DNA from: Liolophura sinensis
Lineage: Eukaryota; Mollusca; Polyplacophora; Chitonida; Chitonidae
DNA: 64,000 bases
Assembly (NCBI RefSeq): GCF_032854445.1
Contig: NC_088305.1
Location: 16,371,606-16,435,605 of the forward strand
Direction of reading: 5' to 3'
Part shown: positions 19,689 to 64,000 of the stretch, piece after piece
Numbering within the stretch: the stretch's first letter is position 1
Layout: every line of letters begins with the position of its first letter
Position numbers and translations under genes: made by a program
The notes under the pieces: generated by a model
Told to the model about the DNA's origin: nothing
What the model saw: only the letters and a program-made list of their open reading frames with translations
Databases searched by the model: none

Positions 19689-22600
19689 GTGAACTAAATG
19701 AATAAGGAGTGAATGAATGTACCATGTGTGAAATGCAATCAGGGTTAGGAAATTATATGGTTGCTGTCCAGATTTATTACAGTTACCCCTGCATGGGCCT
19801 GTAAATGTTAAGTTGAGTTTAATGCGTTACGTTAATCTTAGTAATGTGACTCTCAAAATCCCTAGGCTGGTTTTATGCATTTTTTCTGCCAACACTTGGT
19901 AGTCTTCGCCAAATTATGTGGTCAAGTCCATCCTTTACAAGTTGTCATAGACTTCTGGTATTCGAAATTCTGGCTTCAGTAATGACTGATGACATACAAA
20001 GTTTGTCCCTTATTAAAGCTGTTGGTTCCAACCCCCCAACAGGGTGAGGGTCATTTCTGGTGAATAAGTATACCAATATTTTCACATTTGATGTGTTTTC
20101 ATGCGGGCCGTACTTTGTTTTCGTTTGCTAGAGGACATCCATCAACTAGATACGAGTCGTGAGATCCTAAAGTATGGAGTCCCTGACCGAGGCCCTGTGG
20201 TGCGATCATACAGTGGTCATGCTCTTGCTTATGACCAGGCGAGGCGGGTGCCTGTGTGGGTGGCTGAGCACCTCACACCGGACAGTGTTGTGGGTAAGGG
20301 CAGTAAGGTGACAGTAAAATTGTAAGGCTGTGTACAGTGATCACACACTGATGTACAACAATGTGAGGCGGGTGCCTGTGTGGGTGGCTGAGCACCTCAC
20401 ACCTGACAGTGTCATGGGTAAGGGCAGTAAGGTGACAGTAAAACTGTAAGGCTGTGTACAGTGGTCACAAACTGATGTACGACCATGTGAGGCGGTGCCT
20501 GTGTGGGTGGCTGAGCACCTCACACCAGACAGTGTACTGGGTAAGGGCAGTAAGGTGACAGTAAAACTGCAAGGCTGTGTACAGTGGTCACAAACTGATG
20601 TACGACCATGTGAGGCGGTGCCTGTGTGGGTGGCTGAGCACCTCACACCAGACAGTGTCGTGGGTAAGGGCAGTAAGGTGACAGTAAAACTGTAAGGCTG
20701 TGTACAGTGGTCACAAACTGATGTACGACCATGTGAGGCGGTGCCTGTGTGGGTGGCTGAGCACCTCACCCCTGACAGTGTCGTGGGTAAGGGCAGTAAG
20801 GTGACAGTAAAACTGTAAGGCTGTGTACAGTGGTCACAAACTGATGTACGACCATGTGAGGCGGTGCCTGTGTGGGTGGCTGAGCACCTCACCCCTGACA
20901 GTGTCGTGGGTAAGGGCAGTAAGGTGACAGTAAAACTGTAAGGCTGTGTACAGTGGTCACACACTGATGTACAACCATGTGAGGCGGGTGCCTGTGTAGG
21001 TGGCTGAACACCTCACCCCTGACAGTGTACTGGGTAAGGGCAGTAAGGTGACAGTTAAACTGTAAGGCTGTGTACAGTGGTCACAAACTGATGTACGACC
21101 ATGTGAGGCGGGTGCCTGTGTGGGTGCCTGACCACCTCACACCAGACAGTGTCATGGGTAAGGGCAGTAAGGTGACAGTAAAACTGTAAGGCTGTGTACA
21201 GTGGTCACCATAAAACTGACTACTGTACCACTTTATATATGAAAAGTGAGTATAGAGTTAAACAACAATCAAATTTGAAATACATGTAAATAAATAGATA
21301 TTGGAATTCGTCAACCTATTCAGATGTTTGCAAGGTGTTTATTCAAACATATTCAAGACTGATGATACTATATTTTCTGGGAGGCCCTGATATTGGACAA
21401 CCCAACCAGGGTAGATTTGTCTTAAAAATCAAAGTGAAAAAGTACATAAATTACGCTAAAAGTTGCTCTTTCATAGCTGAATAGGTTGAGGGATTAGGGC
21501 ATATGTACTTAATAATATGTTGATCAGCCCCATCAGTGGTCTCAATGTTCAGTCATTCACTCGTTTTTAAGAGCTCTAAATAAAAATGATGACCTCTAAT
21601 TGAGTCCAAGTTATCGGAAAAGATGATATCTCCTGCGTGAATACAATATTCATAATTTCAGTCCCATATTGTATAATGGTAAATTTGTTGAATTTTAGGA
21701 ACTTTTTTGTTTTGCAAAGTCTATGAATGACAAAATGTAATCTATTTCAGACATTTAAATCATAGAAAAAGACCTTATGTTGTGTCAAGGTAATCAGTCT
21801 GAAGAGCCTGAGATATTTTGTTTATCCCTGCTTATTGTAGGTCCTGCTCATAGAAAGCACTCCAAGTTCAAGCCTGATCCGAACATCCCAGCCATGTTCA
21901 GCGCTCAGAACAAGGATTTCTTGCAAAGTGGGGGCTGGTCTCGGGGCCACATGGCACCCGCAGGGGACTTTAAACATAGCCAGGTCAGTGCTCAGAACAG
22001 TGATTTCTTATAGAGTTGGGTCTAGTCTTGGGGACACATGGCACGTGGGAGTTCTAACAGCCAGGTGGGTGCTCAGAGCAAGAATTTGCTACAGAGTGGG
22101 ATCTGGTCTTGGGGAGACATGGCACGTGGGAGTTCTAACAGCCAGGTGGGTGCTCAGAGCAAGAATTTGCTACAGAGTGGGATCTGGTCTTGGGGAGACA
22201 TGGCACGTGGGAGTTCTAACAGCCAGGTGGGTGCTCAGAGCAAGAATTTGCTACAGAGTGGGATCTGGTCTTGGGGAGACATGGCACCTGCAGGGGACTT
22301 CTGACAGCCAGGACTTGCTCTCAGAGCAAAGATTTCTTACAGAGTGGAGTCTAGTCTTGTTCAGCTGTGGGGGTACACATGGCACCCATGGGGACTTCTG
22401 ACAGCTAGGTGAGTGCTAAGAACAAGTATTTCTTACAGTGTGGGGTCTGACAACACATGGAACTGGGACAGACTGCTTGCTGTGTTATTCTTTTATCTAG
22501 TGCTCCTTTACTGAGACGACTTACCAACACATGGAACTGTGACAGACTGCTTGCTGTGTTATTCTTCTTCAGGACAGACTAGGGTGAATGCATGGAACTT

Positions 22601-35551: not shown

Positions 35552-36889
35552 TCATTCATCTGTTTGCTCTAGACGGGACGACACGTTGGAGAAGTCGAAT
35601 GGTGTACCCATAACCCTCTTGTACAGGTCAAGCACGTCCGTGCACGTCGTCTCGAAGTGGCTGCTAGCATCGTATGACTTCGAAATGAAAAGCTGGTTTT
35701 CGGTTCCGTCATCCAAAGGCTCCAGCAGATCCTGTTCAGAAATAAATTGTTCGCGAATGGTTCCCAGCAAATCAAGGCCTGGTCTCAGCTCTTTGGTGGG
35801 GTCAGAGGTTTCCACAGTGGTGCTGACAATGGCTAAGTAGAAGCCTTTGGCGGCGACATTGTGCGTGTAGGAGACGACACCTATGTAGATATCGTTTTGT
35901 CGTCCCACCTGACTCTGAGGAATGATGATCTGACAAGAAACGGCGTCGTTGGTGCCTGGTACTGGGTGATCCAGGATGCAGATGGCACGAACCACACGGC
36001 CCACTTTGCGGCACTTGTCCAGGGCGTAGGAAGGGTCACAAATGACAGCCTTGCACCTGGCGGTTTCCTCGCCTGAGCGCACACCAACGACTTTCCCATC
36101 TTCCATCTTGATTTCGTCAATGGACTTGTCCAGCATGTACGTACCTCCATAAATGGCACTCAGTCTGGCGAACCCCTGTGGCAATTCGCCCAGCCCGTAA
36201 AGCGGGTAAAGGTATGGCGATTTCAGTCCTTCGTAGGCAGCCAGGGATGCGCTGTACAGCTTGATACGGTTAATGGTCTCCTCACATGGCTTCTTGAGAT
36301 AGTCATCATTGCTGTACAGGGCAAATGCATGGCCTGTGAAATCAATGGTGTTCTTATCCAGGTTGAAGCATTTAGACATCATCTCTTCTGATGTGGTTTG
36401 TTTGGGGTTGACATTTTTCCAGGTCTTCGGGTCTTCAGGGTTGAATTCCTGAACGAACAGCAGGAACTGGCGGTATCTTCTCTTTTCAAAAATGCCCATC
36501 AATGACGACGCCAGAGCTTCTCTCTCGTTTGAAGGTACTTTGTAAATCTTTCCGCCTTTGTACACGAAGCTGCCTTCGATTCCTTTGAAATCGAGGTAGC
36601 GGGTTACGCCAGTGTGGATCAGCAGTCTGACCAGTTGACCATTAGCCATGAGGAATTTGGGGATAAGGTCGACGTTCCAGTCCCTACCCCTTCCCATCCC
36701 GTCCCCAGGAGAATCTTTCTTGAAATGCTTATACAACTCCTCCAATGGATTCATCGATGTGCTCTCGCCGCCGTAGTATTTATTTCGGTCCATGTGCAAC
36801 ACCTTCTTCCCAGCTACGGACAGCAGGCCGCTAAGAATACACTCCTTTAGGCCTGTACCCAAAACAATCACATCGTATTCCGCATCCAT
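35552..36889 (-). CDS. GDI2: Rab GDP-dissociation inhibitor, complete single-exon reading frame
   Basis: 445 codons without an intron, the usual length of the family (human GDI1 447, GDI2 445). Rab GDI extracts GDP-bound, prenylated Rab GTPases from membranes, keeps them soluble in cytosol and returns them. Visible signatures: the FAD-fold-like [11 protein letters not shown] (11-21), [13 protein letters not shown] (31-43), [20 protein letters not shown] (66-85), [18 protein letters not shown] (228-245), [19 protein letters not shown] near 345-363, and [13 protein letters not shown] near the end. The start follows the conserved MD(A/E)[10 protein letters not shown] form. It is a GDI rather than Rab escort protein because it lacks the long REP insertions. 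Animals other than vertebrates usually have one GDI, so the symbol denotes family, not strict orthology to GDI2. The absence of introns contrasts with both neighbours. It lies head to head with BBS12. Confidence 0.96.
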
Positions 36890-39317
36890 AGTGAGTTCTT
36901 ACCAAAATCTGGGACAAACAGCTTCCGCAATCTAATCGGTCTGACGAAGCCGCCTCCTGTCTGATTGATTATTCAATATGGCGAATCTTCTGTATAAGTT
37001 ACGTCCCTTGGACAGCTCTTTTATGTCAGGAGGCCTGAACACATTTACAACACTTTCAGTTTGTCTAACATTTCCTTGGCAATCGTATGTTGTTTACGGC
37101 AAATATTTGCTTTCTGTAAGTATGAGAATGCGTTCCAAGAGGTTTACCCGAAGCGCATCTGAAAGTTAATGGTCACTGACAATCTGTTGGCCGAAAGTAT
37201 TCACTAAAAGTGGATGAAATTAGTGCGTAAAATTTGTGGTTGATAGAAGTGACGAAACGAGTTGTGAGTGTCACATGTTCCAGTGTGAAGTTCAAGCAAA
37301 ACAGACACGTGGATATTGATACGCGTGGCGTCAATGAAATTCACATTTGTCACGTGGTCTTGCAATAAAGATAAAATAAAGTTTGATTAAATGTCTTAAA
37401 ATGCATATAAACAGCAATTTAAAAAAAATCATGAGAAATTAACAGAAAAAACGTATAAAATTATCACCTGACTGTGTGTAGGCCTACTCAGGTTTTATTG
37501 TTATTCTAATAAGCAGTGAAAGTAGTCCCAGCATTGTATTGGTTTTATTATTATTTTATAAGTAAATGATGTTCATCCTGTGCAAGGGAAGAGAGCATAA
37601 TAATTGATTTATTAGTGTTGCTCAATGTATTAAAAAAAAGTACTGGCAGGCTAATCAGACTGATAAACTAGCATTGAACATTACAAAATGAATTACATAT
37701 AGTTGCTGATCTCTAATTAATAGTATAGTTCCAGTGCAGTTGTGTGTGTTTGAGTCCAACCTTCACCGATTTGCTAGCCCGTGGTTAAATATTGGCGGGA
37801 TGTTCAGTTTATGACTGTGAGATGAAGTGATAGTCACCAGATTTTCCATTAAACCCAGCCTTACCTTCAGTGTTTGAGTTAAATATCCCTGAGTGCTGTG
37901 TAAATGATTAAGTAAACAAGCTCACTGGAAGTTTTAATAAATGTGTATATCAATGTTCACAACAGAACAAAAATGCAAAAAAACGGTGACTTCAAAATGA
38001 CAGGCCCATTTTAAAAAACAAAAAAGAAGTGAGGAAATCTGTTGTTCAAAACAGGACAAAAAAAAAAACAGCCGTATTTCAAGTAAAAGAAAGGTAAAAT
38101 ATGAAGTAAGGTTCATCACATAGACAACTGAGAACTATGCATAAAAATACATTTATTTTTTGTTTCAGATTTTTTTAAAGTGTGTGGAAAGGCATTTAAG
38201 TATTTACATACTGTGGTTTGCTTTATGAGGCATATTGATGGTATCTGGGAACTCGGACGTCACATTCCTTTTTGCCCTGATGTTGACCAGAACAAAGGAA
38301 TTTTTGTGAGCATTATTTCAGTAATTCTTTACTTACAGGTAAAAAGAGTTTTTCCATATTCAGTGTTGTGATTAAAGTTAAAAAAACTTCCTGTGACGTC
38401 AGAGTCCTAAACCTGATAGAATGGTCCATAAAGCCCACCTTAGAATTCAGATGTTTGAATGCCTTTAACTCTCTTCCCAAATATCAAAAAACATAAATGA
38501 AAGTATATTTTATGCATAGTTTTAAGTGATCTGTTTAGTGATGCCTACATCAAGTTTTAGAGGCCTTTACTATTAAAGTTTGTCAGAAAGAATTGAAGAA
38601 TATTGAAACTCTCTGTCTGTAAGCTAGCCCCGGGTAGAACCATGTATGAAGTTTCAATTCAATTCGAGACCACGGATATTATGGTTAAATTCACTCACAC
38701 AGTCTCAGAAGTGAAAATGTTGTCCAGTTCACACCGAAGTGAATTCAAAATTCTTGGCAAAACAAATCTAAAACTAGGGTTTGTTGCTTTTCACAATTAA
38801 CATATGCTGTCCAGAATGGTCTAACATCAGTAACACCTGGTTAATATCAGCCAATGTCAGGTGTAGTATTTTTGGAATATTTCCCATTGTGTTCATTTCT
38901 CCGTATACCTCACCATGTTATCTATATCCCTGTTGTCTGCTATGGACTGCCTCACAATTACCTGTTTGGGACTGTTAATGCAACAAGATTATAATACAAC
39001 TGTGAAAATTATTAGACGACAAATTAAACCAATTAATTAGAAGAGCAATGTTTCTCAGGAGAAACACAATTAAAACAGTGGTTAACGAACCATGTGGGAA
39101 ATAATAAGCAGCTTATTAATTATTTACGTGAACTGTTTCAATTGAAGCAATATAAAAAAGGTCAAACAACCAAAGTATAAATACATGCGATGAAATGAAA
39201 GTAAATAAATAGAAGTAAAAGCTTTTATTATAATGTTAGGTTATAACCTATGTTTTCTCCTATCCTGTAGATGAGTCGTTTAATATGGAATGTTGTGATA
39301 CGGATAACAGATGAGTT
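36890..39317. other. Divergent spacer between GDI and BBS12 start codons
   Basis: 2.4 kb separates the two ATGs, so both promoters must lie here unless there are distant 5' exons. A 63-codon plus-strand frame at 36978 ('MANLLYKLRPL...') matches nothing known. An acceptor-like 'cctatcctgtag' at 39259-39270 just upstream of the BBS12 ATG could start exon 1 after a 5' UTR intron, and an ATG at 39271 would open a short upstream frame ending at 39375. No convincing RFX X-box was found. Confidence 0.4.
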
Positions 39318-39375
39318 ATGGCGGGCTGCTGGGCAGGAGGGAGACACAATGGACTGGAAGCCGCTGTGGTGTTAG
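39318..39375 (+). CDS. BBS12: BBS12 exon 1
   Basis: ATG at 39318, donor TTAG|GTAAGG, phase 1. Encodes MAGCWAGGRHNGLEAAVVL; RHNGLEAAVV aligns with RRHMGLQQLSS of human BBS12. Confidence 0.85.
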
Positions 39376-42300
39376 GTAAGGAAGTACTGATGATTTGAAG
39401 ACAATACATCTGTTGTAGCTTTGATTACAGTTATGCCTAGTGGCAACATAAAAAGGAGCGCTAACCATCTTGGCCGCATTAAGAGTTGGAAATCAGTGCC
39501 ATGCAATGAGACAAGTATATGTAGCTTATCCTTGAAGAAAATTGGTATGTTTGCAGATATACAGTAGTTTAAATGTTGATGTTCATTAATATTAAAAGTA
39601 CCACGGGTGCATATTTCTGGCAGACAGCCATGGATTTGATAGGCGAGTTTAGTGTTTGTAGTCTTGCTGCAGCTAACCAGCACTGGTGTATGAATGAATG
39701 ATTGATTTTGGCATAAGGAAGAAGAAAACGTGAAAATGATGCCAGAATCATATAATAAAACGCAAAAAGTTGTATGCAAATAAGATCTTTAATATTTTTA
39801 AAAATTTTTTCCTTCAGCAGAAAAAGATATTTGAAAATACTTTGGTATGGTGCATATTTGGGACAAACTTTTGGTATATATCGTCTTTACATCATAATGC
39901 TGTAAATAATGAGGTGATGCATGTCTAATAAATTTATTCATATGTAAGTTTGTTGCTTATATCCTAATTCATGCCCTTAATCTGAATTATGATAATATGT
40001 ATGACTATATTAAAAATATAAATAGGATAAAAATTTGAACACATTGGTTAGCTGAAAAGACAGAATTCTAGTGCAAATATTGAAATAGTGAAACATGTGT
40101 TATATCCTCATTTATAACATTATTGCACTACGGCATAAAACACCAATCAAATAAATAAATAAATAACATTATTACACAAAAACCATTTACACAAAAAGTT
40201 GGCCCCAATTACCCACCGTACAAAAATTATCATCAAGTGTCTTTTTCTCTTTAAAGAAAAATCAAAAAAAATATTGCAAACCACATTCTCTTTTCGACTT
40301 AACTTCATGTAATTGTTATGTTTTCTCCACCTTTAATGCTCCGTCAGTAATAATTCAGCCATAATGTTGTGACTGACCCAAGATTAAAGTCTGAAGGTGC
40401 ATCTACTACATGTACCTGGTGCAGGTTTGACAAGTTTATGTTGACACTCACCTGGAAGTGCCTCTGCCACATGTAGCTGGTGAAGGGTGGGCAGGTTTAC
40501 TGTGGACACTCATCTGGAAGTGCCTCTACCACATGTAGCTGGTGAAGGGTGGGCGGGTTTACTGTGGACACTCATCTGGAAGTGCCTCTACTACATGTAG
40601 CTGGTGAAGGGTGGGCAGGTTTACTGTGGACACTCATCTGGAAGTGCCTCTACTACATGTAGCTGGTGAAGGGTGGGCAGGTTTACTGTGGACACTCATC
40701 TGGAAGTGCCTCTACTACATGTAGCTGGTGAAGGGTGGGCAGGTTTACTGTGGACACTCACCTGGAAGTGCCTCTGCCACATGTAGCTGGTGAAGGGTGG
40801 GCGGGTTTACTGTGGACACTCACCTGGAAGTGCCTCTACTACATGTAGCTGGTGAAGGGTGGGCAGGTTTACTGTGGACACTCATCTGGAAGTGCCTCTA
40901 CCACATGTAGCTGGTGAAGGGTGGGCAGGTTTACTGTGGACATTCACCTGGAAGTGCCTCTACCACATGTAGCTGGTGAAGGGTGGGCGAGTTTACTGTG
41001 GACACTCATCTGGAAGTGCCTCTGCCACATGTAGCTGGTGAAGGGTGGGCAGGTTTACTGTGGACACTCACCTGGAAGTGCCTCTACCTCATGTAGCTGG
41101 TGAAGGGTGGGCGGGTTTACTTTGGACACTCACCTGGAAGTGCCTCTACCACATGTACCTGGTGAAGGGTGGGCGGGTTTACTGTGGACACTCACCTGGA
41201 AGTGCCTCTCCCACATGTACCTGGTGAAGGGTGGGCGGGTTTACTGTGGACACTCATCTGGAAGTGCCTCTGCCACATGTAGCTGGTGAAGGGTGGGCAG
41301 GTTTTACTGTGGACACTCACCTGGAAGTGCCTCTGCCACATGTACCTGGTGATTGGTGGGCAGGTTTACTATGGACACTCACCTGGAAGTGCCTCTGCCA
41401 CATGTACCTGGTGAAGGGTGGGCAGGTTTACTGTGGACACTCACCTGGAAGTGTCTCTACCACATGTACCTGGTGAAGGGTGGGCAGGTTTACTGTGGAC
41501 ACTCACCTGGAAATGCCTCTGCCACATGTACCTGGTGAAGGGTGGGCAGGTTTTACTGTGGACACTCATCTGGAAGTGCCTCTGCCACATGTGCCTGGTG
41601 AAGGGTGGGCAGGTTTACTGTGGACACTCACCTGGAAGTGCCTCTGCCACATGTAGCTGGTGAAGGGTGGGCAGGTTTACTATGGACACTCACCTGGAAG
41701 TGCCTCTGCCACATGTACCTGGTGAAGGGTGGGCAGGTTTACTGTGGACACTCACCTGGAAGTGCCTCTGCCACATGTACCTGGTGAAGGGTGGGCAGGT
41801 TTACTGTGGACACTCATCTGGAAATGCCTCTGCCACATGTAAAACTGACCACCATTGTTAAATGAAATATTTTTGAGTGTGGCGCTCAACAAAAAAATAA
41901 ATTTTATATGGGGTTCAGCATAAAAATTTGAACAGAATGTTTTTCTTATTTGAACTATAATAAATATATATATGTGTTTTTTTAATCCGTGAGTTTTACA
42001 TCATGATTTCATGGACAAACCACAAAGCACCTCGAATCAGGAATTTGTTTCACATTTGTTCGTTAAGAGGTGGGATATCCGAGTTAAGCCACTCCTTTCT
42101 CGAACGTGGAGGTTGGAGGATGTACATGTGGCTCAGTGAGAAAGGTGCATGGTGTCGGTTCAATTCCAGCCTTGGACATTTGTAGATTGTTTTGTTCTTT
42201 ATGTTTATAAGGGCATTCGTGATAATAGGGTGTGTACAAATCTTGTCAGGCCCTTAGTGCATTGTTATTACCTCCAGTGTACAAGTGAAAATTTCAGAAA

Positions 42301-45300
42301 TGGTTAAGTATTATCTAAAACAATAAGTCAGTCTAATGATGAATCAGTCAAAATGCCCAATATGGGTTTGTTAAAAGAAAACAAAAGAAAAAATCAATAC
42401 AGTGATGAAATAAATACATGGGTTAAATTTGCTGTAGATTGATATGCCATGAATTTATTGTCCTGTATCTTTTGCAGGTCAACTTGGGAACTCTCTTCTT
42501 GGCAGCAGTCAAAGGTTTGTCATTTATTATATTGATGAGCAGAAGAAAAAACGCATGTTGCAAATTGAAATTATCACACTGCAACATTAATGTCAAATAC
42601 CCTAATTCTTCAACCTTTTCAAAGGCCTCTGCGACCAATGTTTTGAAACTTTCTAAGAGAACTGTGGGGAGTAGAGTAATAATTTGCACAGTTTTTTGAA
42701 TCTTGCATCTTTAATGACACAAGCACATCACATTATCATCATTTTCCTAATATTTGTAGGCATAAAGTCCACTGAAAAGAATGCTTTAGTGGTTGAAAAG
42801 GTGGAAAATGTACAGTAAATAGAATTCTGATGCACAGATGAAGTCGTGTGTTTAGAGAGACACTATCATGTTTCTTATCGTCACGTCATTGTAGATGAAT
42901 ATCTTCATTGTGTTAATTACCGCCCCCGGATAGCACAGTTTGTGGAGCGTCCGCTTCAGGAGCGGTATATCCAGGATCAATCCTAGGTCGAGTCACTCCT
43001 AAGACTTTAAAAGAGGAAGTTGTAACTTCCTCGCTTGGCGTTCAGCATGAAGGGGATAGTGCAATGACTGGTTGACCCGTATCAGTATAATGGCTCGGGC
43101 GGGGCGGCTTACTTGTCTACGGTAAGTCGTCTCAGTGTCGTCTCAGTGAAGCAGCACTAGATAAAAGAGCGTTGGAAATCCATCCTGCAACAAGGAGGCA
43201 CATTACATACAACCTAATGATTCCTTTGTCATCATATGACTGAAAAATTGTTGAGTATGACGTTAAACCCCAAGTACTCACTCATTCACTCATTGTGTTA
43301 ATTCAACTCGCACATCACACGGCCCCCTTGTTGTTCTTTTCTGCATCATTTTATTCTGATAGATTGCAAAATTTCAATATTGTCATTTTTGATTTGTCCC
43401 TGAACCACATCTGGCATCCTGGCATTTTTAATGATTGTTTGTGGCCTTAATTGCTGTACCAATTGTGCTACAGGGGTTTGCCTTGTGGTTTGCCACAGCA
43501 AACAAAAAAATGTCTCTGCTGGACTGGGGCTATAATGGTAGGTGCTTGGTAACCCCAATTTCTGTATTAAGAAATTTGTATAAAATAAGTGTCTTTTAAT
43601 TGTTACAAAGAAATGGGCCATTATTTTCTGTTTTTTCATTTCATTTGTTTCAGAGATATTTCCATAAAATGTAAACCTTTCGTCCATTGCATGTATCTGA
43701 CAGTGCATAAGAGTTAAGATTAAAGAATCTTTCTGTTGGGATATGTTCCAGGGTTGTAGACATGTTTTACGCGTACATGTGCAAGTATGTTGTGAAGTTT
43801 TACAGTGTATGCCAAACATTTATCACCAAATCATTTTTTTTTCATTCACGGTTTTCATCTTTTATCTTGAACAGTAAATTTCACATATATCTTATATTTC
43901 AGTTTGAAATGCATTGTGGGTGATGATAACTCTAGTGTGACAGTTTCTGATCCAGTGGAACTTCTGAAAAATCTGGATATTGAGGTATTTGCTTGGAATA
44001 TTTTCGCTTGTTAAATGAATTGATTTTCCTTGTGTTTTTCCCTTATTATTTCCTTGTGTTCTTCCCTTTTTATTTCGTTAGTATTTTCCTTTATTATTTC
44101 CTTATTGTTTCCTTATTGCTCAGATGTTATTAGGCGTTGCTTCCATCCCATCCTCAGGCATGCAGAGTTTGAGATTTCCCTCTTCTTTGTGAAAGTTTGA
44201 GATTTCCCTCTTCTGTGTGAAAGTTTGAGAATTGAGATTTTCCTCTTCCTTGTGGAAGTTTGAGGCTTTCCTCTTCCTAATGGTAGTTTGCCCCAAGCAG
44301 ATCATTTCTTTCATGGGCACACCATTTTTTGTCTATCTAATAAACTGACTGCCATAATATACATGTAAGTTAAATATTCTTGAGTATGATACTAAACCCC
44401 AGTCAATCGATCAAACAAACAAAGAGTGGATCATTCAGTGAATTTTGGCTTTATTATTACTGACCTACATGTACAGATTAATTAGTAATCAAAACTGTAA
44501 GAGATTATGTTCCTTAAAATGGCCACACCTTTGACATATGTAGCTGACAATATTGTCGTACTTTGTCTGTCATTTCAGTATATTGTAGGTCAGTCTCACC
44601 AGAGTACACACTGAATTATTCTGCCTGTCACTCCTGCATCCTGCAGGTCAGATCATACGGGACACCTGTCAGTCTCATCAGAGTGCACACTGAATTATTC
44701 TGCCTTTCATTTCAGCATCCTGCAGGTCAGATCATACGGGACACCTGTCAGTCTCACCAGAGTGCACACTGAATTATTCTGCCTGTCATTTCAGCATCCT
44801 GTAGGTCAGATCATACGAGACACCTGTCATTCTCACCAGAGTACACACTGAATTATTCTGCCTGTCACTCCTGCATCCTGTAGGTCAGATCATATGAGAC
44901 ACCTGTCAGTTTCACCAGAGTACGCGCTGAATTATTTTGCCTGTCATTTCAGCATCCTGTAGGTCAGATCATATGAGACACCTGTCAGTCTCACCAGAGT
45001 ACACACTGAGTTATTCTGCCTGTCAATTTAGCATTCTGTAGGTTAGATCATATGAGACACCTGTCAGTTTCACCAGAGTACACGCTGAATTATTTTGCCT
45101 GTCATTTCAGCACCCTGTAGGTCAGATCATATGAGACACCTGTCAGTCTCACCAGAGTACACACTGAATTATTCTGCCTGTCATTTCAGCATCCTATAGT
45201 TCAGATCATAGGAGACACCTGTCAATTTCTCCAGAGTACACACTGAATTATTCTGCCTGTCATTTCAGCATCCTGTGGGTCAGATCATACGAGACACCTG

Positions 45301-48300
45301 TCAGTCTCACCAGAGTACACACTGAATTATTCTGCCTGTCATTTCAACATCCTGTAGTTCAGATCATATGGGACACGTGTCAGACTTACCAGAGTACACA
45401 CTGAATTATCCTGCCTGTCATTTCGGCATCCTGTAGGTCAAATCGTACACGACACGTGTCAGTCTCACCAGAGTACACACTGAATTATTCTGCCTGTCAT
45501 TTCAGCATCCTGTAGGTTAGATCATATGTGACACCTGTCAGTCTCACCAGAGTACACACTGAATTATCCAGCCTCTCATTTCAGCATTCTGTGGGTCAGA
45601 TCATATGAGACACCTGTCAGTCTCACCAGAGTACACACTGAATTATTCTGCCTGTCATTTCAACATCCTGTAGGTCAGATCATAGGAGACACCTGTCAGT
45701 CTCACCAGAGTGCACACTGAATTATTCTGCCTGTCATTTCAGCATCCTGTAGGTTAGATCATACGAGACACCTGTCAGTCTCACCAGAGTACACACTGAA
45801 TTATCCAGCCTCTCATTTCAGCATTCTGTGGGTCAGATCATATGTGACACCTGTCAGTCTCACCAGAGTACACACTGAATTATCCAGCCTCTCATTTCAG
45901 CATTCTGTGGGTCAGATCATATGAGACACCTGTCAGTCTCACCAGAGTACACACTGAATTATCCTGCCTGTCATTTCAGCATCTTGTAGGACAGATCATA
46001 CGAGACACCTGTCAGTCTCACCAGAGTACACACTGAATTATTCTGCCTGTCATTTCAGCATCCTGTAGGTCAGATCATACGGGACACCTGTCAATCTCAC
46101 CAGAGTCCACACTGAATTATTCTGCCTGTCATTTCAGCATCCTGTAGGTCAGATCATACGAGACACCTGTCAGTCTCACCAGAGTACACACTGAATTATT
46201 CTGCCTGTCACTCCTGCATCCTATAGGTCAGATCATATGAGACACCTGTCAGTTTCACCAGAGTACACGCTGAATTATTTTGCCTGTCATTTCAGCATCC
46301 TGTAGGTCAGGTCATATGAGACACCTGTCAGTCTCACCAGAGTACACACTGAATTATTCTGCCTGTCATTTTAGCATTCTGTAGGTCAGATCATATGAGA
46401 CACCTGTCAGTCTCACCAGAGTACACACTGAATTATTCTGCCTGTCATTTCAGCATCCTATAGTTCAGATCATAGGAGACACCTGTCAGTTTTTCCAGAG
46501 TACACACCGAATTATTCTGCCTGTCATTTCAGCATCCTGTGGGTCAGATCATACGAGACACCTGTCAGTCTCACCAGAGTACACACTGAATTATTCAGCC
46601 TGTCATTTCAACATCCTGTAGTTCAGATCATATGGGACACGTGTCAGACTTACCAGAGTACACACTGAATTATTCTGCCTGTCATTTCAGCATCCTGTAG
46701 GTCAAATCGTACACGACACGTGTCAGTCTCACCAGAGTACACACTGAATTATTCTGCCTGTCATTTCAGCATCCTGTAGGTTAGATCATATGTGACACCT
46801 GTCAGTCTCACCAGAGTACACACTGAATTATCCTGCCTCTCATTTCAACATCCTGTAGGTCAGATCATACGAGACACCTGTCAGTCCCACCAGATTACAC
46901 ACTGAATTATCCTGCCTGTCATTTCAGCATCCTGTAGGTCAGATCATACGAGACACGTGTCAGTCCCACCAGAGTACACACTGAATTATCCTGCCTGTCA
47001 TTTTAGCATCCTGTAGGTCAGATCATATGAGACACCTGTCAGTCTCACCAGAGTACACACTGAATTATCCTGCCTGTCATTTCAGCATCTTGTAGGACAG
47101 ATCATATGAGACACCTGTCAGTCTCACCAGAGTACACACTGAATTATTCTGCCTGTCACTCCTGCATCCTGTAGGTTAGATCATATGAGACACCTGTCAG
47201 TCTCACCAGAGTACACACTGTATTATTCAGCCTTTCATTTCAGTATCCTGTAGGTCAGATCATATGAGACACCTGTCAGTCTCACCAGAGTACACACTGT
47301 ATTATTCTGCCTGTCACTCCTGCATCCTGTAGATCAGATCATACGGGACACGTGTCAGTCTCACCAGAGTACACACTGAATTATTCTGCCTGTCATTTCA
47401 GCATTCTGTAGGTCAGATCATATGAGACACCTGTCAGTCTCACCAGAGTACACACTGAATTATTCAGCCTTTCATTTCAGTATCCTGTAGTTCAGATCAT
47501 ATGAGACACCTGTCAGTCCCACCAGAGTACACACTGAATTATCCTGCCTGTCATTTTAGCATCCTGCAGGTCAGATCATATGTGACACCTGTCAGTCTCA
47601 CCAGAGTACACACTGAATTATTCAGCCTGTCATTTCAGTATCCTGTAAGTCAGATCATGCGGGACACCTGTCAGTCTCACCAGAGTACACACCGAAATAC
47701 TCTGCCTGTCATTTCAGCATCTTGTAGGTCAAATCATATGAGACACCTGTCAGTCTCACCAGAGTACACACTGAATTATACTGCCTGTCATTTCAGCATC
47801 CTATAGGTCAGATCATATGAGACACCTGTCAGTCTCACCAGAGTACACACTGAATTATTCTGCCTGTCATTTCAGCATCCTGTAGGTTAGATCATATGTG
47901 ACACCTGTCAGTCTCACCAGAGTACACACTGAATTATTCTGCCTGTCATTTCAGCATCCTGTAGGTTAGATCATATGAGACACCTGTCAGTCTCACCAGA
48001 GTGCACACTGAATTATTCTGCCTGTCACTCCTGCATCCTGTAGGTTAGATCATATGTGACACCTGTCAGTTTCACCAAAGTACACACTGAATTATTCTGC
48101 CTGTCATTTCAGCATCTTGTAGGTCAGATCTCACCAGAGTACACACTGAATTATTCTTCCTGTCATTTCAGCATCCTGTAGGTCAGATCATACGAGACAC
48201 ATGTCAGTCTCACCAGAAAACTTATGGAACAGGGACAAAAACTCTGCTGGTTCTCATTGGTATCTGGATGAAATCGGCCATGAGACTTCGAGAGCAGGTA

Positions 48301-51300
48301 TTAATTTCAGAGGACATGATGGGGTCAAAACTGATGTCAAATATTAATTTAGATATTAAAAAGACTATACTGGAAATTTTGGACAAAAAATTCATCAGCA
48401 AGAATCCAATTGAATTTTTTGTAATATTTTAGGATAGGCCAAATAATTAACATTTTATGCATGTACTATCATTGAGAATGGGTAATAAGATTTGTAAAAT
48501 TTATGATTTGGGTCATTGTAGAATCATTTTAACTAATTAATAGTAAAGGTACAGGTACAATATTTTCGGAGCCCTTCTTTTTGTATGATGATTTGATTTG
48601 TGAAGATCCACTTTTATCACAAATCAGGGGCCTCCGTGGCTCAGTTAGATAGCTCACTAGCGCTGCGTAATGACCGAGAAGCCTCTCACCAATGCGGTTG
48701 CTGTGAGTTCAAGTCCAGCTCATGCTGGCTTCCTCTCCGGCTGTAAGTGGGAAGGTCTATCAGTAACCTGTGGATGGTCGTGGGTTTCCCCGAGCCCGGT
48801 TTCCTCCCACCATAATGCTGGCCACCGTCGTATAGGTGAAATTTTCTTGAGTACGGCGTAAAACACCAATGAAATAAATAAATAAATAAGTAAATTATCA
48901 CAAATCTCCGCTCTAGCCCCATTCCCACTTGCTAGCCTGTGACTTCTATTTTGGGAATATGTACAGTGTAAGTATATACTCCAGAGTATGGTAATTTTGT
49001 CCAAGTTGTTTTCATTCCAGTTTCTCCACCCATCAAACCTGACCCCTAACATAGTTGAAATGCTGTATTTCGCATAAAGTTTGGCCTGAAGCAGGTCAAG
49101 GCTGTAAATATGATTCTTCTGATGCCAACATTTACGTTTTTCTGATAAGAAGTAAGTCAAAATTCACAAAAAGATCATTAAATGCATGGCCTTGTGATGC
49201 AGATAAATCAATCAAAATCATTTGTCACTTGAAAAAAAAACTCTTGTGAATACGGTGTCCTGGAGATAGGCATAAAAACTTTATAGCAAAAAGTTGGGAA
49301 ATTCCTTAAAGTTCACATAGTGAAAATTGGGTGTTTTTTTCTGTCCTGGAACAATGGCTATCGCTTGGTTATTTGTTGCTTTTTTTTTGGATTGGTGTTT
49401 TACGCTATACTCAAGAATATGTCCCCTGCCAGCATTAAGGTGTGAGGAAAAGAGGCAGAGCCCGGGGGAAACCCACAACCATCCCCAGCTGGCAGACCTT
49501 CTCACATACGACAGGAGAGGAAAACCAGCATGATGGACATGAACTCACAGGGACTGCATTGGTGAGAGGCTTTGCTGGCAGGCTAATGATCTCGGCTATG
49601 GAGGCCTCAGGGAATCACTTGTCTGTATGACCTAGTACTCAGTCTGGTAGCACAGCACAGTGACCGAGAAACCTCTCACCAATATGATTGCTGTGAGTTC
49701 AACTCCAGCTTGTGCTGGCTTCCTTTCTGGACATACATTGTCATACAGGTCTGCCAGCAACCTGCAAGCAGTCATGGCAGTTGCGGGTTTCTCTCCGATT
49801 CTCACCAGTTTCGTCCCACCATAATGCTGGCTGTGTTTGTATTCCCTAATTCTTCAACCTTCTCAACTGTCTTTGCAGCCATTATTTCGAAAGATTCTGA
49901 GAGAACTGTGGGGGTGTAAAGAAATAATTTGCACAGTTTTATGAAGCTTGCATCTTTAATGAAACTTACAAATCGTTTTTAGTGTCATTTTCATGATGAT
50001 TGTATCCATAAATTCCACTGAATAAAGTTCTTTAGTGGTTGAAAAGGTTGAAGATTTACAGTACCGGTAAGTGAATATTCCAGAGTACCTGGTGAAATAA
50101 AATCAAATAAATAAATAAATTGCCTGAGCATCAGTACACATGTACTCTGAATAGAAAAGGACTGCACTTTTTTTTGAAATGCTTAACATTTAGTTTTGTA
50201 ATTTATTGTTGCAAGCTGTAATGATGTGAATTGCTTGGTTTTAGCTACAGTACTTTGCATGTGTGGTACTGATTTTTGATGTTCTACATTATTTGTCTGT
50301 TTGTAGGATGTTCCAGTGAGGGATATCACACAGCTGATGCATGCTGGGATAGATGCTATTCTAGAACATCTTCAGAAGATGAAAATCCCACAGATTTGGG
50401 ATCATTTTGAAGAAAACAGTGAGGAAGAAGAATCTAGAAAGGCATGGAATACTTCTGGAAATGTTGAAGATGACACAGCTTTAGAAACTGGACACGGTTC
50501 CAGTGTGATTGACAGTAGCATAATTGCAGAAGATGCTTCTGTGGGTTGTGATCCGTTCTCTGCAATTTCAGAACCAGCTAATGCACCAGGATTAGATCTT
50601 ACTTTTCAGCCAACCAGCAGCTGTGATTTGCCTTTAAATGCCTTTAAAGAGCTTTCAGACATTCCATTGAAAACAAAGCCTCAGTTTAGCAGCTTAACAA
50701 ACTGCCATGATTCAGATGATGATTTTGCAGATTGTTTTGATGGCATCCCCGAGTCACAAAAAGATAATGATGTCAGTGAAGATCCTTTGAATGAAGACAT
50801 CAGCAAATTTTTTTCCAAGTCAAGAAACAATGACTCCTATATTATCAACAGTAGTCATTGTGAGATTAATACTTCGGTAAAATTACCTACAAACCAGACA
50901 GTTGCATCATTGACATTGCAAATGAAGAACCAACCTGACCTTGATGAATGTTCCGATGATATATCGTGGTATTTTGAATCAGACTCAGGGAGTGGAAAGG
51001 ACAAGGGCCAGATGGATTCCTGTTTGCATCAGATGTCTGGGATTGGAAGGAATGATTTAACGGGTGAAAGTTCAAAGGTCACATCCAACATGCTCTTAAA
51101 AGATTTAAGTTCATATTTGGAGAACGATTTTCAAAATGCTGACATCATTAACTTTGCAGTTCACAGTAACTCAGTTGAAGAAATTACAATAGGAGGTAGT
51201 GTTCTTGATAGGAGAGATATCAAAGAAAGCCTTGAACAAACAGAAATGAGGAAGAAAATGGAAGAAAGACAAAGGAATCTTGAAGATGTACTGCGCAGAT

Positions 51301-54300
51301 CAAAGCCTGTGTCACTTCCCAAGTTGAAAAATTGCAGTCGGCATTTCAAAACTATAGAATCAACAGTTAAGTTGCACCATGTAAAGCAACTATCGGAGGC
51401 TGAAAATGCCTATTGCTCGATTGAGAAACCAAATGCGACAGACTATGAAAATGTGGATGGTTTTAGTGTTCTTAATTCAACGGCTAAAAACTATTGTATT
51501 GAAAACCCTGAATTTAGCAGTCTTTGTGCAAAGTCTTCTTATGGGGAATGTGTGAATGGTTTTTCTATAGAAAAGACACCTGGAGCTCTTGAAAATGGAA
51601 TGTTGAGCAACGTAAATCAAAGAAAACCAGAAGGTTTATCGACTCAAACAAAGCTTGTGTCACATATGAAATCACAAAATTGTAGCCACCATTTCAAAAC
51701 TATCAATTCAACAGTTAGGTCAAAGCTTGGCCGGGCCTTGTGTGGTGACAAAAACAGATGTTACATTAAAGAGCAGGAAGGTGAGTCCAAGAACACATCA
51801 AGGCTACATTATGGCTTTCTTGATCTTCAAGAATCGGGGGAACAAATTCTTGATGAATCAGTGGAAAGTTCAAGTGACTTATTTAGAAAGAGTGGGGAAA
51901 ATGATTCAGTATTAAAGGAAATGTGGACAACATCCAAGGAGAGTGCTGTCAAAAACAACAGAAGCTTAAACCATCAGCTGCAAACCCATATTGTAGAATT
52001 TTCTACAGATGGTCTATCGAGTGACCACAGTATTTGCGAAAACATTGTCAGGCATTTTCCTGACATAGACGAGTTAAAAGCTGCATGCTTTTTATCAGAT
52101 AATCTCAAATCTTTAGAGTCATTCATTTTAGAATCTGCCGACAAGCCTACAGATTGCCAGGTGGATTTTACGGAAGACATTCTGATTCCTGGAGTGAAAA
52201 CCGTGGAAGAGTTGGCTTACAGACTTAGTCATGGTCATGATTTGGCCATGAGGCTAGTCATGGAAGTCTACCACCGGCACCGTGAACTTCGTCAGAAAGA
52301 CAGACACTTCCAAAAACCACAGTGAGTAGGCAGTGCTCCTCTCTGCATTCATAGAAGTCAGTTTTGGCAAAAATGATATGTAAGTTTTAAGAAATACTGC
52401 AGGTATATGTACCGTATGTGTAATTCAAAAATGAAAACTGGGTATATTTTGGTAAATTCAAGAAATACTATATCTGATTCAAAAATGGAAAGAATAATTT
52501 GGTCATTTTAGTGTATTTGTCAGTATTTATGTGGTAGAACTTAAGGATAAGTGTCCAGATTTATTATTTATTTATGATTAACTACTACTTATATATATAT
52601 TAAACTGAGTTAAGAAAATATTTAAAAAGGGTCTATTAAGAATGGCACTTAAAATCACAAGATAATGAGGCTGGTTTTGTGCATTTTTTCCACCAACACT
52701 TGGAAGTGCCATTTACTTAAGTGTTAGAAAAGCTATAAGAGTGAAAACAAGCAGGTGAGCCCATGCTTCGAAAGTGCTGCCGCCACTGCAGTATCATGCT
52801 GATGACACCAGACATGACACCCACATCCAGTCACATTGTACTGACATTGGGCCAACCAGTCGTGTTTCTTTGCTCCAACCTCTGAGTGCTGAGCGCCAAG
52901 TGAGGCAGCAGCAAGTACCATTTTTAAAGGTTTGATCCCGGGCTCTCCTCACTTTGAGAGGGACACTAATCATTAGGCCATGGAAACAATCAGTTAAATT
53001 TTATGGTAAACACACGAAATGTACAGTACCAGTTTTACACAAACAGGATAAAGCTTTATGGCTTATCTGTCCATATTGCCAGTGCAATTTGAAATACCTG
53101 GACAAAGACCAGGTTCAATGGCTGAAAACTCAGAATGTGAAGCCTGACCAGAGATGCCAGTGTCATAAATCGGAACTTCTATGTTGTCCACTATGGGTTC
53201 AAATTGATATGGCAGTATACTTGCTTCAGTGTAGCTGGAATTCATCTTGAAAGTGACATCGCTTTTATGCGAATTCCCAGGTTAAATGGCCCGGCCGTCC
53301 TATGGTTGGCAGCTGTGACGCCACTTGTTGAGTTGTACCAGTGCAGCCGGCTGGAGATTGGCTAGAGCAGTAAATCTGTTGTTTTTGGTGGATTTAAAGT
53401 CGTTATTATGTCTCTTAGAAGATATCCAGGTGGACAGATAGAAATCGACTGGTGTTATTTCAAACAGATGCCCAAAAAGAAGTAAACATGAACAGTCTAT
53501 TTATTTAAAACTTTGTGCTGCCTAAATTGGATATTAAAGGAGACAGATAAATGTAGATGTAAGATCATCATGTCTGTTGTCAGCGGTGTGCATTACTCTA
53601 CACTAGTCTACATGTATACTCATCAACAGTATTTCATTCATAGTTAAGGTTTTTTTAATTGACACATTGTGTTTGATTAAATTCATTCACCATATAGTGT
53701 CACCATATAGGGTCAAAATATAGGGTCACCAAATAGGGTCACTTGAGTGTATTTTTGTGACGATTAATTAACCTCTGATCAGAAAAAGTAAAGTGTTGAC
53801 ATCAAAATTATAGGCATCAAAATTATAAATTTCAAAGCCTTTGTGTGTTACTGATAGTGTATTTTCACAAGCCAAACTTTGGAGGAAATACAGTGTATGA
53901 AATTACCACATTCCGTACATGTACTTACTGTGATCATGACAAGGCTGTTGACCATCTTGAGACATCAGCAGTGGAGGTAATATAGCGGCATACAACATAC
54001 AAAATATACAAGAGATTTCTGTGTTTATGTTTAGGTTTGACAGTAGCAGATTGCACACCTGTGTCACAGGCCCAGGTACAGAGAGAGCATCTTGTGTGAG
54101 GGAGGGGCTACTGGTGCCTGTGTCACTTGATCTCATGATTGACAGGTCTGCGTGGAGAGAGAGAATGGCCCAGGCTTTGGTGAGGATGTCATTTGATGTG
54201 TGGTTTAATTGAAATGAAATTTTTACGGAGAGATACCATGCTGCATATGTTGAGATGTCGCCAAAATTGTACAATTTCTCCAAAGCTCAGTCTGACTGGA

Positions 54301-60950: not shown

Positions 60951-61029
60951 AAAAAAACAAAAATCTAGTTTCCTCATATATGTAAGTGTTTTCCTCATAT
61001 TTCTGCGTAGTTTTCACATGTAGTTTGTG

Positions 61030-64000
61030 TGTCCGGAATTTGAAGAGAACATCGACACACAGTACATTTAACTTGTGTGAATGAAATTTGGAGAGGACAT
61101 CCACGCACAGTACATGTAACTTGTATGAACGGAATGTGGAGAGAACACCCACGCACAGTGCATGTAACTTGTATGAACGGAACGTGGAGTGGACATCCAC
61201 GCACAGTACATGTAACTTGTATAAACGGAATTTAGAGAGAACACCCACGCACAGTACATGTAACTTGTGTGAACGGAATGTGGAGAGGACACCCACGCAC
61301 AGTACATGTAACTTGTATGAACGGAATGTAGAGAGAACATCCACGCACAGTACATGTAACTTGTATGAACGGAATTTAGAGAGAACACCCACGCACAGTA
61401 CATGTAACTTGTATAAACGGAATTTAGAGAGAACACCCACGCACAGTACATGTAACTTGTGTGAACGGAATTTGGAGAGAACATCCACGTACAGTACATG
61501 TAACTTGTGTGAACGGAATGTAGAGAGAACACCCACGCACAGTACATGTAACTTGTATGAACGGAATTTAGAGAGAACACCCACGCACAGTACATGTAAC
61601 TTGTGTGAACGGAATTTAGAGAGAACACCCACGCACAGTACATGTAACTTGTGTGAACGGAATGTGGAGAGAACACCCACGCACAGTACATGTAACTTGT
61701 GTGAACGGAATGTCTAGAGAATATCCACGCACAGTACATGTAACTTGTATGAACAGAATATAGAGAGAACATCCACGCACTGTACATGTAACTTGTATGA
61801 ACGGAATGTAGAGAGAACATCCACGCACAGTGCATGTAACTTGTGTGAACGGAATTTAGAGAGAACACCCACGCACAGTAATGTAACTTGTGTGAACGGA
61901 ATGTGGAGAGAACATCCACGCACAGTACATGTAACTTGTGTGAACGGAATGTCTAGAGAACATCCACGCACAGTACATGTAACTTGTATGAACGGAATAT
62001 AGAGAGAACACCCACGCACAGTACATGTAACTTGTGTCAACGGAATGTGGAGAGAACATCCACGCACAGTACATGTAACTTGTATGAACGGAATGTAGAG
62101 AGAACACCCATGCACAGTACATGTAACTTGTGTGAACGGAATGTGGAGAGAACACCCACGCACAGTACATGTAACTTGTGTGAACGGAATGTAGAGAGAA
62201 CACCCACGCACAGTACATGTAACTTGTATGAACGGAATGTAGAGAGAACATCCACGCACAGTGCATGTAACTTGTGTGAACAGAATGTAGAGAGAACACC
62301 CACGCACAGTACACAGTAACTTGTATAAACGGAATTTAGAGAGAACACCCACGCACAGTGCATGTAACTTGTATAAACGGAATTTAGAGAGAACACCCAC
62401 GCACAGTACATGTAACTTGTGTGAACGGAATGTGGAGAGGACATCCACGCACAGTACATGTAACTTGTATAAACGGAATTTAGAGAGAACACCCACGCAC
62501 AGTACATGTAACTTGTGTGAACGGAATGTGGAGACAACATCCACGCACAGTACATGTAACTTGTATGAACGGAATTTAGAGAGAACACCCACGCACAGTA
62601 CATGTAACTTGTGTGAACGGAATGTGGAGAGAACATCCACGCACAGTACATGTAACTTGTGTGAACGGAATGTCTAGAGAACATCCACGCACAGTACATG
62701 TAACTTGTATGAACGGAATATAGAGAGAACACACACGCACAGTACATGTAACTTGTGTGAACGGAATGTCTAGAGAACATCCACGCACAGTACATGTAAC
62801 TTGTATGAACGGAATGTAGAGAGAACACCCACGCACAGTACATGTAACTTGTATAAACGGAATTTAGAGAGAACACCCACGCACAGTACATGTAACTTGT
62901 GTGAACGGAATGTGGAGAGGACACCCACGCACAGTACATGTAACTTGTATAAACGGAATTTAGAGAGAACACCCACGCACAGTACATGTAACTTGTGTGA
63001 ACGGAATGTGGAGAGAACACCCACGCACAGTACATGTAACTTGTGTGAACGGAATGTGGAGAGAACACCCACGCACAGTGCATGTAACTTGTATGAACGG
63101 AATGTAGAGAGAACATCCACGCACAGTACATGTAACTTGTGTGAACGGAATGTGGAGAGAACACCCACGCACAGTGCATGTAACTTGTGTGAACGGAATG
63201 TAGAGAGAACATCCACGCACAGTACATGTAACTTGTATGAACGGAATTTAGACAGAACACCCACGCACAGTACATGTAACTTGTGTGAACGGAATGTGGA
63301 GAGAACATCCACGCACAGTACATGTAACTTGTATGAACGGAATGTAGAGAGAACACCCACGCACAGTACATGTAACTTGTGTGAACGGAATGTGGAGAGG
63401 ACATCCACGCACAGTACATGTAACTTGTATGAACGGAATGTAGAGAGAACATCCACGCACAGTACATGTAACTTGTGTGAACGGAATGTGGAGAGAACAT
63501 CCACGCACAGTACATGTAACTTGTATGAACGGAATTTAGAGAGAACACCCACGCACAGTACATGTAACTTGTATGAACGGAATGTGGAGAGAACATCCAC
63601 GCACAGTACATGTAACTTGTGTGAACGGAATGTCTAGAGAACATCCACGCACAGTACATGTAACTTGTATGAACGGAATATAGAGAGAACACCCACGCAC
63701 AGTACATGTAACTTGTGTGAACGGAATGTGGAGAGAACATCTACGCACAGTACATGTAACTTGTATGAACGGAATGTAGAGACAACATCCACGCACAGTA
63801 CATGTAACTTGTGTGAACGAAATGTGGAGAGAACACCCACGCACAGTACATGTAACTTGTGTGAACGGAATGTAGAGAGAACACCCACGCACAGTACATG
63901 TAACTTGTATGAACGGAATGTAGAGAGAACATCCACGCACAGTACATGTAACTTATGTGAACGGAATGTAGAGAGAACACCCACGCACAGTACACAGTAA
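61030..64000. repeat. 48-bp minisatellite, about 62 copies, running off the window
   Basis: The unit 'gaacggaatgtggagagaac', 'acccacgcacagtacatgta', 'acttgtgt' shows a few recurrent variants: 'tat'/'tgt' before 'gaacgg', 'gtggag'/'gtagag'/'ttagag', 'acaccc'/'acatcc', and 'gtctagag'. Period is exactly 48 with rare indels, so several frames on both strands stay open for up to 567 codons. These encode 16-residue repeats. 61950-62320 and 63631-64000 are near copies offset by about 1680 bp (35 units), both ending in the rare variant 'cagtacacagtaac'. Confidence 0.95.

Follow-up and report, generated by a model that had tools for sequence, protein, structure and literature searches.

BBS12 and the tandem array of its third intron

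The window analysed here is a stretch of 64,000 nucleotides (nt) from contig NC_088305.1 of the chiton Liolophura sinensis, which carries on its forward strand a gene that we take to be BBS12, from its likeness to the human protein. Most of intron 3 of this gene is occupied by a tandem repeat of 79 base pairs (bp), whose unit contains the end of the intron with its splice acceptor and the start of exon 4; the copies preceding the genuine one are called decoys below, and arrays whose units include an exon edge are referred to as mirages, the term used for amphioxus.

When exons 1-4 and the first 45 residues of exon 5 were joined in frame, they matched the chaperonin family PF00118 (expectation value, E, 1e-17), and the joined exons aligned without gaps to the group II chaperonin 9rwp_A of the Protein Data Bank (PDB; E 7.8e-11, residues 8-133). 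This alignment crosses the exon 3/4 junction (DIE/HP against DIEHP) and, being gap-free there, fixes the start of exon 4 at 48172 without recourse to transcripts, in agreement with a first-pass annotation of this DNA that had placed the exon there, as the last unit of the array, by comparison with human BBS12; chaperonins were used here in place of that comparison. BBS12 itself was absent among the best 60 of the 111 PDB matches of the joined exons, the match of exon 4 alone to PF00118 (E 1.4e-4) did not reach the curated cut-off, and Pfam at E 0.01 yielded nothing for exon 3 or for the open frames at 50307-52325 and 58599-59228, both of which are presumably BBS12 exons, judging by likeness. 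Introns 3 and 4 measure 4187 nt (594 nt of them before the first decoy) and 2009 nt, respectively.

Over the window, Tandem Repeats Finder (TRF) reported a period of 79 with 44.8 copies and 91% matches at 44589-48130. Each unit pairs the last 33 nt of the intron with the opening 46 nt of exon 4, a layout found in 44 full units when the register is set by fixed 79-bp steps; together with two shortened units these make up 46 decoys, after which the genuine exon 4 unit (48139-48217) closes the array at its exon end (Table 1). The earlier count of about 46 copies thus holds, as does the unit anatomy, except that TTTCAG, listed there as additional to the 33 nt, lies within them. The resemblance between repeat and exon exceeds chance: the opening 46 nt of exon 4 agree with the array at up to 45 of 46 positions, against 27 of 46 for the best of 200 shuffles and 22 for exon nucleotides 47-92. 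BLAST with the genuine 79-mer gave 47 matches in the window, all on a single strand and spanning 44567-48217. In the 609-Mb assembly, at least 39 matches of exon 4 were reported among the best candidates scored, all of them at the BBS12 locus, which gives no support to a dispersed element; one copy, or haplotype, of the locus was found there. The full units differ pairwise by 9.3% on average, with variants ordered along the array, and unit differences are lowest at a lag of 16 (6.0, versus 6.9-7.7 at the remaining lags from 1 to 23), which marks a block duplication of units.

Table 1. Exons of BBS12 and EXOG and the arrays at their edges, in window coordinates
Feature	Position	Strand	Basis or remark
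BBS12 exon 1, coding part	39318..39375	+	In-frame join with exons 2-4; start codon picked by eye
BBS12 exon 2	42478..42514	+	In-frame join, chaperonin alignment
BBS12 exon 3, donor GAG/GTATTT	43903..43984	+	In-frame join, chaperonin alignment
Shortened, diverged first unit	44567..44603	+	AG immediately before 44579
44 full 79-bp decoy units	44604..48079	+	TRF and fixed-step register
Last decoy, 59 bp (20-bp deletion)	48080..48138	+	Register layout
Genuine intron end and acceptor	48139..48171	+	8-nt pyrimidine run, T at -14
BBS12 exon 4, 126 nt, donor CAG/GTATTA	48172..48297	+	Nucleotides 1-46 supply the exon portion of the repeat
BBS12 exon 5, preceded by TTTGTAG	50307..52325	+	End is the open-frame end; true donor slightly upstream
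EXOG exon A, donor G/GTAAGG	20132..20293	+	BLAST, protein alignment
123-bp array copying EXOG exon A end and donor	20233..21208	+	TRF, BLAST; donor-side mirage
EXOG exon B, donor CAG/GTCAGT	21841..21983	+	BLAST, protein alignment
81-bp array copying EXOG exon B end and donor	21978..22359	+	TRF, BLAST; donor-side mirage

Decoy splice signals and arrays at other exon edges

The acceptor AG is intact in 35 of the 46 decoys and lost in 11, and the pyrimidine run measures 3-6 nt in the decoys, reaching 8 nt in the genuine acceptor only. The first-pass annotation, which spoke of some 45 near-identical decoy acceptors, therefore identified the problem correctly and overstated the similarity of the competitors. 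Three positions distinguish the genuine unit from the decoy consensus. At -14 it has T, which makes its run of 8 pyrimidines continuous, while G stands in all 44 full decoys; T is most likely the derived state, since G is likewise found in the two shortened decoys at the start and end of the series. The second difference is a CGA codon (Arg) in the genuine unit, which reads TGA in 18 of the 44 full decoys, and the third, at +30, is silent and occurs in none of the 44. An in-frame stop is reached from every decoy register (all 46 counted, with AG intact or not) and from the genuine site none is met; the earlier statement that decoys run into TGA after 18 codons applies to 19 of the 46, the others stopping after 7 (15 registers), 4 (8 registers), 11, 22, 55 and 55 codons. 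In each full unit the exon-like part is followed by a GT-containing sequence (GTACAC). Divergence from the consensus among full decoys amounts to 5.5% in the exon-like part and 5.0% in the intron-like part, and the AG pair ranks 8 among 78 adjacent pairs in erosion, somewhat above most of the unit; at this rank, special erosion of the pair was not considered compelling. Masking of the decoys by RNA structure was rejected, given that the folding of two neighbouring units is no stronger than that of shuffled sequences (z 0.43).

Donor-side mirages are found in the same window at two exons of EXOG, here designated A and B. Joined, these exons matched EXOG structures (4a1n_A, E 8.5e-31), the alignment being gap-free at the A/B junction and showing one single-residue gap within exon B. 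Both cases were found by reading arrays, hence they do not constitute an unbiased sample. The intron after exon B opens with a diverged copy of this exon and resembles intron gain by tandem duplication, for which exon B is the nearest case here.

Further exons were sampled as the best 30 of 50 matches to PF00118 (chaperonin) and the best 30 of 81 matches to PF00063 (myosin), covering 194,022 bases including flanks; best matches are biased to longer, well-conserved exons, and the cases are not fully independent because several of these exons share one gene. Donor-side mirages were present at 5 of the 60 exons, namely three from chaperonin subunits (L023, L031 and L034, which we take by likeness to be CCT3, CCT3 and CCT5) and two from myosins (L065 and L073). 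The exon length shared with the array extends from approximately 8 nt in L073 (judged by eye; the routine used gives 4) to 89 nt (L034). The routine compares a single decoy and is conservative: it returned 4 nt for L073 and 1 nt each in the cases of L031 and EXOG exon B; other copies or BLAST gave about 23 nt for L031, up to 68 nt (82% identical) for EXOG exon B and about 8 nt for L073. One sampled exon (L032) has an acceptor-only array and was rejected as an acceptor mirage, since the strict count finds 0 exon bases in its unit; its second array holds intron sequence only. L030, L057 and L071 were rejected as well, because by eye the arrays near these exons hold only intron sequence. On the gene strand, L032 presents a short chaperonin exon between two arrays (about 989-1531 and 1640-2810), the upstream one consisting of 41-bp units that end in an acceptor and the other, of 27-bp units, starting about 12 nt past the donor.

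Array coverage around the 60 matches declines with proximity to the exon: on the upstream side it is 13.8% at 800-1500 nt and 1.7% at 0-10 nt, on the downstream side 18.0% at 200-400 nt and 8.5% at 0-10 nt; inside the matches it is 3.2%, derived in part from L032, whose match spans an intron. This pattern looks like that of arrays which arise anywhere and are selected against near exons, rather than being drawn to splice sites. An asymmetry between donor and acceptor sides was rejected, as arrays within 60 nt downstream (8 of 60) and upstream (3 of 60) do not differ significantly (Fisher p 0.20; p 0.27 and 0.24 at 30 and 100 nt, respectively). Exon-edge arrays are apparently common in the Liolophura sinensis genome.

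Arrays with a period of at least 12 constitute 20.7% of the window. One of them, with 23 copies of a 62-bp unit, lies in BBS12 intron 1 (40397-41841) and bears no likeness, judged by eye, to the neighbouring exon edges; many of its units contain, on the reverse strand, the good donor motif CAGGTGAG, and no gene was seen on that strand in this interval. Another, of 62 copies of a 48-bp unit, occupies 61016-63994 up to the window end, beyond what is probably the last exon of BBS12, where long open frames on both strands arise from the repeat alone. An element resembling a short interspersed nuclear element (SINE), presumably of a type typical of molluscs, is located at about 48630-48890 and ends in AAATAAATAAATAAA. 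Between EXOG and BBS12, the reverse strand carries a complete, intronless open frame for a Rab GDP dissociation inhibitor (35552-36898; PF00996, 448 aa, E 2.1e-219), possibly a retrocopy. The host also has eight Haemocyan_bet_s domains (PF14830) in a row, which we take to be of the mollusc haemocyanin type.

Origin of the array and choice of splice site

The most probable account of the BBS12 array, which we hold with fair confidence, is that of a mirage produced by minisatellite turnover that included exon edges, and tolerated as splicing favours the exon-proximal site. From the sequence we infer its history, the splicing choice in BBS12, the decay of mis-spliced mRNA and the neutrality of the decoys. 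The array would have originated by tandem duplication of a segment that reached from the last part of intron 3 to nucleotide 46 of exon 4, and would then have grown inside the intron, including the duplication of multi-unit blocks. Only the copy joined to the remainder of exon 4 can encode protein, so that this copy stays exon and the others drift as intron. Exon 4 is presumably recognised across the exon, given that both flanking introns are long, and the acceptor nearest to its donor would thereby be favoured; the change of G to T at -14 would strengthen the genuine pyrimidine tract and may offset a weaker preference on the acceptor side. Splicing to a decoy would place an early stop in the transcript, which would probably be degraded, and for this reason some mis-splicing would be tolerated. 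As a broader cause, the heavy minisatellite load of the genome may place arrays over exon edges in several genes. Should decoys disturb the recognition of exon 4, skipping is possible and would preserve the frame, as the 126 nt of this exon are a multiple of three.

The coding frame of BBS12, of both EXOG exons and of the five sampled mirages runs through the exon-adjacent copy, which is the first donor or the last acceptor; alignment of the proteins shows this for BBS12 and for exon A of EXOG, and the others were judged by eye. In L023, L034 and EXOG exon A, the genuine donor and the donor of the adjoining decoy have the same sequence, and therefore position must count there. Splice sites closest across the exon are preferred when the flanking introns exceed 250 nt, as described in PMC9225289, and it is likely that this single rule serves donors and acceptors. 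Transcription order alone would favour the decoys at an acceptor array.

Several observations weigh against this account. According to section 9 of PMC9225289, acceptors in the long-intron setting show an upstream preference that is reduced and not reversed, from which some decoy use is to be expected; furthermore, Reed and Maniatis, as cited in the same source, found the site nearest across the intron to be favoured, and by their result the decoys could well be used. Site strength is not a general explanation, in view of the identical donors mentioned above, and the change at -14, one base among three differences, is possibly due to chance. The equal divergence of the two decoy parts would fit neutrality, and the erosion of AG could reflect selection against decoys. 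Moreover, arrays were absent at all of the 10 kinesin matches (from a total of 132) that were covered, located in two further stretches; the remaining kinesin matches and all 49 ABC matches lie outside the array counts.

The array might instead be a regulatory device, in which decoys titrate splicing factors or divert transcripts to unproductive mRNA and copy number sets BBS12 output. The intact AG of most decoys and the early stops in every register fit this idea, as decoy use would lower output, and so does the reduced, not reversed, upstream preference of acceptors (PMC9225289); nevertheless, we consider it unlikely, because the exon-like and intron-like parts of the decoys diverge alike, 11 of the 46 have lost the AG, and similar donor and acceptor arrays in unrelated genes suggest a general mutational process. 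A role of the decoys as real alternative exons, serving either as 46-nt pseudo-exons or as variant beginnings of exon 4 and giving distinct products, is highly improbable: full units do have an acceptor-like end and GTACAC after the exon-like part, but this candidate donor is weak, judged by eye, and reading on to exon 4 meets a stop after at most 55 codons in every one of the 46 registers.

Whether the copy number, or a part of the array, was generated by the assembly has to be weighed as well, since a single haplotype was found and an aberrantly assembled mirage is known from the amphioxus draft genome (PMC3087553). An artefact seems very unlikely in view of the mean difference between units, the ordering of their variants and the lag-16 block duplication, and both edge units carry deletions of their own; simple stuttering error, in particular, would yield identical copies.

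Relation to known systems and significance

The BBS12 array is best explained as a mirage of the kind known from amphioxus, unusually large. Amphioxus mirages have been described in Adh3 and in the globins BflGb6 and BflGb9 (PMC3087553), and further ones in TnC and PGBD5 (PMC3902484). As described there, they share with the BBS12 array a minisatellite-like tandem duplication over an intron-exon boundary, located at the acceptor side in BflGb6 and at the donor side in BflGb9, as well as the retention of AG or GT in many, not all, repeats and edge units set apart from the rest. The two differ in scale, with 46 decoys in BBS12 versus 6 and 3 units in two BflGb6 haplotypes, and in evidence, since regular splicing of amphioxus mirages was demonstrated by reverse transcription polymerase chain reaction (PMC3087553), whereas that of BBS12 is deduced from its exons. 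They differ in host as well, the BBS12 array belonging to an animal with what appears to be mollusc-type haemocyanin.

Minisatellites at exon boundaries able to shift exon or intron status are also reported for human genes in segmental duplications (PMC2812944); according to that account, these repeats average 30 bp in 4 copies, and transcripts that keep the repeat are also known for the majority of the intron modifications, while the coding exon of BBS12 seems not to have been altered. Intron gain by tandem genomic duplication (PMC4974935, PMC3087553) is comparable in that a duplicate bearing splice signals is removed as intron, though the BBS12 array enlarges an intron that need not be new. 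Among molluscs, intron 3 of the abalone TSSK1-like gene likewise contains a long minisatellite, with a 27-bp unit in up to 62 copies that varies between individuals (PMC6905558); the available part of that source mentions no splice site within the unit, unlike the unit in BBS12. No splice-site array in a mollusc was found in the literature searched, which covered few subscription papers.

Splice-site choice has been studied so far with few competing sites, and BBS12 sets 46 natural decoys before one true acceptor, while the same genome supplies donor-side counterparts with near-identical decoys; at stake is the choice among position across the exon, tract strength and transcription order. These findings extend mirages from lancelets to a mollusc, in which the copy number is far higher. 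Tentatively, and as a possibility somewhat short of an expectation, exon-edge tandem repeats may be genome-wide and continuing in Liolophura sinensis; many donors and acceptors in its genes would then compete naturally with numerous near-identical decoys, the coding copy being the one next to the exon. If this holds across the genome, it would amount to a large natural experiment on exon definition, and new introns and isoforms would have a constant supply.

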